From the NCBI RefSeq assembly GCF_000196895.1, contig NC_014297.1, forward strand, positions 2,742,468 to 2,806,467: 64,000 nt of DNA, read 5' to 3'. Below, one piece after another: positions 50,825 to 52,187 of the stretch. The position numbers were made by a program, and so were the translations under genes. How positions within the stretch are numbered: the first letter of the stretch is position 1; every line of letters starts with the position of its first letter. The notes under the pieces are model-generated. The model was not told the origin of the DNA. It was given only the letters and a program-made list of their open reading frames with translations, and did no database searches. The stretch is from Halalkalicoccus jeotgali B3 (GTDB lineage Archaea; Halobacteriota; Halobacteria; Halobacteriales; Halalkalicoccaceae).

Positions 50825-51072
50825 CCGACGCGACCGACGTGCGGCGATTCGACCTCGTTAGGAAGGAGGACGAGTCGGGGGTCTCGGGGACGGGCGTCGT
50901 CGCGGTCGGGGTCGAGTTCTCGAACGGCTACGTGGAGCTGCAGTGGCTCAACGACGACGGCAACGACGTCGACGCCGAGGAGAACGGTCACGCCTCCTAC
51001 CCCGGCGGGGTCGAGGACACGATCCGGGTCCACGGCCACGACGGCCGAACCGAGATCCGGTGGCTTGACTGA
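50821..51072 (+). CDS. small conserved hypothetical protein
   Basis: An 83-residue soluble protein, starting at ATG 50821 inside the out-of-frame end of the GH3 frame. It is a compact beta-rich sequence (VVAVGVEFSNGYVELQWLND, DTIRVHGHDGRTEIRWLD) with a halophile-like composition. No motif or family was identified. If the GH3 gene ends at 50760, the genes are separated by 60 bases, which is consistent with this gene being real. Confidence 0.7.
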   Translation: MTDATDVRRFDLVRKEDESGVSGTGVVAVGVEFSNGYVELQWLNDDGNDVDAEENGHASYPGGVEDTIRVHGHDGRTEIRWLD

Positions 51073-51966
51073 GAAGGATATCGTGTTATTCCAGCATCAA
51101 TATCTTCATGATAATTCAATTATAGAGTAATAAACAGACAAAATGAGAAAAAGTGATAGTAGTTGGTTATCGAGGAGAGTAGGCGAGAGCCTTCGGCATG
51201 AATGGAAGGAATATCGGGATCTGTACGCCAACAGCAAAGGAGAAGCGTATGAAGAAAGTTTGGTAGAGTTTCTGAGATCGTATTTTGGAGGGTCGTATGA
51301 TATTAATAACCGAGTGGCTACAATCGATCCTGAGTTGAAATCGTTTGAAGTATTCGATTTTAGACGGGGTGATGACGAACTCGATATCGTAGGTACCTTT
51401 ACTCAATCCCAACCTAGAGTTATTTTCGAAACAGGAGCACGATCGAAGCTTCAGTGGGTGCCTTACGAGGGAGTAGCCTTTGTTTGCGAAGTTAAGAGCA
51501 AACTCACCAAGCCAGCACTAAAAGGCGACCTTGAGAAGCTACGCAAGGTCAGAAAGCTCGATAGCACTATAAATGACCGCTTCGGGACAACGATCACTGG
51601 TGAATTCACAATTGATGATCCGCTAAAATGTATAGTTTATGATGATTGCTCAATATCGGAACAAGCGCTGAAAAGATCCTTGCAAGGTAATGTTACTAAC
51701 TGGCATCTCATCTGGGTAGTTGAGTCAGATCTGCTAATTGTAAACGAGTCGCTTCCAATTTTCCATCAGCTAATGGAATGGTCATCATTTCCTCACTTAG
51801 CACCAAATGCAACAACAGTTGACAACGGTATCTTCTGGTTTCTGATTATATTGTCTACATCCATACCGACACCATTGTCGATATCAACAATCGACTCAAT
51901 CATGCCATTGCTCAGTGATACAAAGATATCCTCATCACCGACTACCTCAATAGAGGAATAGGTATT
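51070..51966. mobile_element. low-GC island adjoining tRNA-Ala, probable relic of an integrated element
   Basis: From the stop of the preceding gene to the tRNA-derived repeat the sequence is clearly AT-rich compared with the rest of the window. It contains one nuclease-like gene and an antisense ATPase-like fragment. The boundary at 51967 coincides with a copy of the tRNA 3' end. I see no integrase, so this is a remnant or cargo. Confidence 0.5.
51143..51961 (+). CDS. DUF6602-like PD-(D/E)XK nuclease-fold protein (low GC)
   Basis: The 272-residue frame shows a restriction-endonuclease-like core: ESLVEFLRSYFGGSYDINNR, then RRGDDELDIVGTF (Asp), and VAFVCEVKSKLTKPALKGDLEK, with the Glu-x-Lys of the ExK motif. 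This is the pattern I associate with DUF6602, often found in defence-type neighbourhoods. Codon use is AT-rich, unlike all neighbours, so it was acquired recently. Residues after about 233 (the Ser/Thr/Pro/Ile-rich tail) look like antisense of another gene, so the original C-terminus is probably lost. A promoter-like CAATTATAGAG is at 51115-51125. Confidence 0.6.
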   Translation: MRKSDSSWLSRRVGESLRHEWKEYRDLYANSKGEAYEESLVEFLRSYFGGSYDINNRVATIDPELKSFEVFDFRRGDDELDIVGTFTQSQPRVIFETGARSKLQWVPYEGVAFVCEVKSKLTKPALKGDLEKLRKVRKLDSTINDRFGTTITGEFTIDDPLKCIVYDDCSISEQALKRSLQGNVTNWHLIWVVESDLLIVNESLPIFHQLMEWSSFPHLAPNATTVDNGIFWFLIILSTSIPTPLSISTIDSIMPLLSDTKISSSPTTSIEE

Positions 51967-52014
51967 GTGGACTCGCTGGGAGTCCCGCGAGCGACTGTAA
52001 GGAGCGAGGGGGAC
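51793..52014 (-). pseudogene. startless fragment with a GHKL-ATPase-like signature
   Basis: On the minus strand, open from a stop at 52015-52017 to TGA at 51793-51795. From 51960 downwards it reads YSSIEVVGDEDIFVSLSNG, then MIESIVDIDNGVGMDVDNII. The DNGVGM block is the G1 (DxGxG) motif of GHKL/Hsp90-type ATPases and is preceded by suitable beta strands. The N-box and later motifs are absent and no start codon exists, so this is a truncated remnant. It is antisense to the tail of the gene at 51143. Confidence 0.4.
51967..51981. repeat. 15-base copy of the tRNA-Ala 3' end (att-like)
   Basis: GTGGACTCGCTGGGA at 51967-51981 is repeated exactly at 52061-52075, which covers the 3' end of tRNA-Ala plus one flanking base. 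Direct repeats of a tRNA 3' end are typical of integrase attachment sites. Confidence 0.65.
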
Positions 52015-52027
52015 TTAGCGAGTCCAC
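51967..52027. repeat. long inverted repeat (hairpin) containing the tRNA-end copy
   Basis: GTGGACTCGCT at 51967-51977 pairs with AGCGAGTCCAC at 52017-52027, and the adjacent AGTCCC/GGGACT pair extends the arms with a small bulge. About 22 bases of loop remain. It could fold in RNA or extrude as a cruciform. Confidence 0.6.
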
Positions 52028-52061
52028 TGACCGGAGTCGAGCGAAGCGAGACGAAGGGAAG

Positions 52062-52133
52062 TGGACTCGCTGGGATTTGAACCCAGGGCCTCTTCCTTGC
52101 GAAGGAAGCGATCTACCACTGATCTACGAGCCC
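52062..52133 (-). tRNA. tRNA-Ala (CGC anticodon)
   Basis: A 72-base cloverleaf on the minus strand. The acceptor GGGCTCG pairs with CGAGTCC and includes the G3:U70 wobble that identifies alanine tRNAs. The anticodon stem CTTCC/GGAAG encloses loop TTCGCAA, giving anticodon CGC. The T-loop is GGTTCAAATCC. The discriminator base is A and CCA is not encoded. It reads GCG codons. Its 3' end is duplicated at 51967-51981. Confidence 0.93.
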
Positions 52134-52187
52134 GCAGTCCATCGTACCCGCCGAAGTTATTTGTGTCTTCTGCTTCTCTCGTCCGCA

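Follow-up and report, generated by a model that had tools for sequence, protein, structure and literature searches.

Bacterial NucC is an inactive trimer that assembles into a hexamer upon binding of cA3, cuts dsDNA unspecifically and stops infection by cell death. This cA3-activated DNase serves both CBASS and type III CRISPR in bacteria (PMC8682760, PMC7854544). The Pfam family PF20247 (DUF6602) is one for which Pfam states no function and on which a literature search found nothing. The annotated CBASS NucC of a Thauera plasmid, whose gene shares an operon with those of a cyclase and an AAA ATPase, matches the DUF6602 model at 5.1e-31. The presence of an annotated CBASS NucC in this family indicates that DUF6602 is the NucC catalytic domain, which provides a function hypothesis for the family.

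The stretch of DNA analysed here (the window) comprises 64,000 nt of the Halalkalicoccus jeotgali B3 genome (G000:C1:2742468-2806467; genome 98.6% complete) and contains an AT-rich island close to a tRNA-Ala(CGC) gene (Table 1). In a composition scan, the GC content is 41.4% at 51070-51966 compared with 67.3% for the whole window; the second-lowest 897-bp stretch of the window has 58% GC, and the island is the lowest by far. The island holds a single ORF of substance (hereafter the 51143 gene). The ORF list shows no integrase gene in 51070-51966, and no viral gene is left in the island. In two genomes of the same genus, G001 and G005, the island is absent and the corresponding flanks are separated by 19 bp and 13 bp, respectively. 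The low GC content described in an earlier sequence-only reading of the locus is thus borne out, as is variability of the island across close relatives. These observations support an AT-rich, variable and recently acquired foreign segment beside a tRNA integration hotspot.

Table 1. Features of the island and its flanks (window coordinates).
Feature	Position	Strand	Basis
Left flank: conserved host gene, 83 aa	50821..51072	+	ORF list; same-locus comparison
AT-rich inserted segment	51073..51966	.	GC drop; island-free same-locus sequences
Intact NucC-family (DUF6602) nuclease gene, 272 aa	51143..51961	+	Pfam, profile, fold, full-length relatives
Catalytic D81 codon (E. coli NucC D73)	51383..51385	+	Invariant in alignments; NucC alignment
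Catalytic E116-V-K118 codons (E. coli NucC E104, K106)	51488..51496	+	Invariant; NucC alignment
Antisense frame with VDIDNGVGMDV, a coincidence and not a gene	51793..51960	-	No family match; stops in relatives; re-coding test
Old 15-bp tRNA-Ala 3´-end copy, pre-island	51967..51981	.	Repeat comparison; also found in island-free G001, G005 and G006
tRNA-Ala(CGC), integration hotspot gene	52061..52133	-	tRNA call; G006 has an element with an integrase here

The 51143 product is a NucC-family endonuclease with a PD-(D/E)XK fold that is conserved over its full length. It is a member of DUF6602 over the curated Pfam cut-off (6.8e-13) and contains the CEVKSK motif, in agreement with the DUF6602-like PD-(D/E)XK protein recognised previously, for which the family can now be named NucC. 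PADLOC NucC models match the product at 1.4e-5 and 5.8e-4, and all six subfamily members match these models. Searched against PDB sequences, a profile of the six closest sequences, which are the subfamily members, retrieves NucC alone at E<=10, with each of the five distinct chains matched (best E-value 2.7e-7). The profile of 12 DUF6602 sequences reaches NucC at 1.3e-23, with the next unrelated match at 0.007. An AF2 model was built on the 12-sequence alignment with a mean pLDDT of 74.6, which is low past residue 242 (the last 30 residues); an earlier model from four sequences was too poor (pLDDT 45.7) and was unused. With the 12-sequence model, Foldseek returns 14 matches at E<=0.001, all of which are NucC (best 8e-10), with TMt values of 0.59-0.67 over approximately 260 columns, corresponding to the full-length fold. 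A search of a viral fold library found nothing. The likeness to NucC (PDB 6p7p, 6q1h, 6uxf and 7zgv) covers the whole-length fold, the D/E/K triad, the N-terminal and C-terminal helices and a K-G-x-x-x-E motif. The triad is intact, with D81, E116 and K118 invariant across the aligned relatives.

Relatives of the 51143 product with 35-44% identity are present in five other haloarchaeal genomes, namely at L011 (G299), L012 (G097), L014 (G091), L069 (G248) and L064, the last being a contig of an uncultured Halobacteria MAG. Their length is similar to that of the window protein, and the C-terminal tail is common to all five, more loosely in L064; the tail also aligns to the C-terminal helix in DUF6602 proteins that are more distantly related. 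Since the relatives share the same C-terminal tail, the tail is native to the protein. This finding contradicts the proposal of the sequence-only reading that two gene tails had been joined by deletion, and bears directly on the idea of a two-gene defence module, nuclease plus convergent GHKL ATPase, of which deletion and fusion left a remnant. The string VDIDNGVGMDV, which does exist in the antisense frame and resembles the GHKL G1 motif, is what speaks for such a module. The sense tail, homologous in the relatives, already refutes it, and the antisense frame has no match in Pfam (including HATPase profiles), PADLOC, NCBIfam, PDB sequences or plasmids. Its sole start codon yields only 36 aa, and stop codons interrupt the frame in five of five relatives. 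Over the 33 aa of the tail, identity averages 38% in the sense frame, which has no stops, compared with 29% in the best antisense frame. The sense strand at the motif encodes the conserved NGIFWFLIILSTSIPTPLSISTIDSIM, and the antisense 'GHKL' motif is the conserved STSIPTPLSISTID read in reverse. When the sense gene was synonymously re-coded, 45% of trials gave an antisense match to the loose pattern D.G.G[MLIVF], compared with 4% for the stricter [IVLF].D.G.GM. The candidate GHKL ATPase was rejected on the grounds of the missing library match, the stops in relatives and the frequency of the loose motif upon re-coding, which removes a false lead; a two-gene remnant is accordingly given next to no credence. 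What stands of the broken, recently acquired defence-type module proposed earlier is an acquired, variable segment with a defence-family nuclease; the gene itself is intact and conserved full length with the same tail, an outcome that the sequence-only reading had itself named as its refutation.

The subfamily is rare and is found in five of the 392 genomes of the order, in which DUF6602 overall occurs in 13. The genes of the relatives have 37-41% GC in richer surroundings, and in four of the five, virus or integrase genes are located near the gene. In G248 and G299, the nuclease gene adjoins a betapleolipovirus ORF9-like/DUF7845 gene, and the G299 neighbourhood contains a spike-family gene as well. 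In G097, both a pleolipovirus spike relative and a DUF7845 gene are found no more than about 8 kb from the nuclease gene. The G091 gene is located directly 3´ of a tyrosine integrase gene. In G248, a tRNA-Ala(CGC) is found 3.3 kb from the nuclease gene. The G248, G299 and G097 neighbourhoods resemble betapleolipovirus-type proviruses of haloarchaea, from which the window island differs in carrying no viral gene. No relative of the nuclease gene was found by tblastn against plasmid and phage records, by a single-protein search of viral and genome contigs or by an alignment-based search of viral contigs, and the phage collection contains no isolated pleolipovirus that encodes it; virus carriage is therefore seen only in provirus-like loci.

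Several further loci were also recorded. Another DUF6602/NucC-like gene is located at L068 5722-8325 (G003:C1) in the same genus and is preceded by three AT-rich ORFs (38-39% GC) without a confident Pfam or PADLOC match; this arrangement is possibly an uncharacterised multi-gene module. An eCIS_core domain is present in a 934-aa protein encoded a few kb from the DUF6602 relative on the uncultured Halobacteria MAG contig (L064 1322-4126). Elsewhere in the source genome, two DUF7845 genes of the betapleolipovirus ORF9 type (G000:C3:160171-161097 and 178938-179864; L093 and L095) have identical scores and lie approximately 18.8 kb apart.

The 51143 product differs from a CBASS NucC in sequence, in genomic neighbourhood and in its putative ligand positions. 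The identity to a CBASS NucC is approximately 18%, and no cyclase, HORMA or TRIP13 gene is located beside the 51143 gene, the relatives of which sit in haloarchaeal mobile-element settings. E. coli NucC contains Arg53 and Tyr81, which we take to be cA3 contacts and a feature of cA3-activated members rather than of the fold; a search of the literature on NucC residue roles found nothing. The corresponding columns hold Ser51 and Ser89 in the 51143 product and Ser, Ala, Gln or similar residues, unconserved, in the relatives. A Cas10 palm-2 search, which matched the positive-control genomes, found none in G000 or in the genomes of four relatives. A SMODS search gave no match in G000, with a sub-threshold match in G299 only, and a search with the Thauera-operon cyclase, run without a positive control, retrieved no relative from five genomes (G000 and those of four relatives). 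No CBASS gene is found beside the nuclease gene, since the island consists of one gene. The nuclease gene thus lacks the adjacent CD-NTase gene of a CBASS system, and the Cas10 expected for a type III CRISPR effector was not found in the 98.6%-complete genome. A genuine NucC effector might instead respond to a cyclic oligoadenylate (cA3) that a CBASS cyclase or the Cas10 of a type III CRISPR system supplies in trans, as the family membership, the intact triad and the use of bacterial NucC by both systems would allow. With the Cas10, SMODS and cyclase searches as reported and with both presumed cA3 contacts replaced by serines at positions that vary in the relatives, such activation in trans appears improbable. 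The change at the two presumed contact positions and the absence of a detected Cas10 or CD-NTase together do not favour cA3 as the signal.

The reading that we favour, with moderate confidence, is a solitary NucC-like DNase on mobile elements, which cuts DNA on an infection signal without a linked cyclase. The intact catalytic site points to an output identical to that of NucC, and the missing partners together with the altered pocket positions suggest a different input. The nuclease would be kept silent in the healthy cell, presumably by allosteric silencing. When the infection signal arrives, its predicted nuclease activity would cut DNA unspecifically, and the infected cell would be killed or stalled or the competing virus destroyed. 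This is the mode of action of NucC, here operating without a linked cyclase. The protein probably plays a role in infection or superinfection defence; considering that the relatives are located in provirus-like or integrative elements, superinfection exclusion or an abortive response would be the most natural form of this role. The rarity of the subfamily, the lack of a linked cyclase or sensor gene and the low model confidence over the last 30 residues weigh against this reading, and the gene may be carried as a passenger that has no selected role. A broader reading, which we put forward only tentatively, is that these proteins form a clade of solitary NucC-family nucleases that travels on pleolipovirus-type and other integrative elements of haloarchaea, is no longer under cA3 control and provides one-gene defence or superinfection exclusion in response to a new trigger. 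The data point to orphan, virus-associated archaeal relatives of NucC without the known second-messenger partners, and the mode of activation of these proteins can be tested.

The position of the island was compared with the integration history of the tRNA-Ala(CGC) gene. The 15-mer of the tRNA-Ala 3´ end, GTGGACTCGCTGGGA, occurs at 51967-51981 and 52061-52075, which confirms the description of a copy that abuts the island. However, the copy GTGGACTCGCTGGGAGTCCCGCGAG is already present without the island in G001 and G005, and also in G006. As the island-free G001 and G005 both carry it, the copy is older than the island, which sits outside this older scar and has the copy on its right side only. 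No copy of the tRNA 3´ end was found at the left edge of the island, and the 4-bp TATT that both edges have in common is too short to be informative. The view of the island as an element flanked by direct repeats of the tRNA 3´ end was therefore rejected: of the link to tRNA 3´-end integration drawn by the sequence-only reading, the hotspot setting holds, but the copy did not arrive with the island. In G002, G003 and G004, additional tRNA 3´-end copies, which are degenerate, are found at the locus, and in G006 a 12.4-kb element is located between partial and complete 3´ ends of the same tRNA-Ala. The succession of old tRNA 3´ copies in the genus, the lone gene without an integrase and the lack of a left-hand att copy at the island would fit a relic, that is, a selfish or passenger gene that remained after the decay of a tRNA-integrating provirus and has no current function. 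An intact ORF, the retention of all catalytic residues and a length in line with that of the relatives argue against this reading, which is considered less likely. One horizontally acquired cargo gene, inserted at the tRNA-Ala(CGC) integration hotspot of the genus, is the best explanation of the island.

The hotspot shows additional features in the window and in other genomes of the genus. The 3´ flank of the tRNA-Ala in the window (51967-52075) contains GTGGACTCGCT twice in direct and once in inverted orientation (inverted repeats I3 and I4), and the hairpin-forming trailer is kept in G001 and, almost completely, in G006. The G006 element (L054, G006:C29, 5300-17800) encodes a tyrosine integrase, a DUF5906/D5-like helicase, an HSDR_N-domain protein and a polysaccharide deacetylase, with weak PADLOC mads matches for the HSDR_N and helicase proteins. 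Near the same tRNA-Ala in G002 (G002:C2, L057 13826-14559), a PemK/MazF-like gene that scores just under the Pfam cut-off overlaps a MarR-like HTH gene, and the two form a toxin-antitoxin-like pair in the hotspot.
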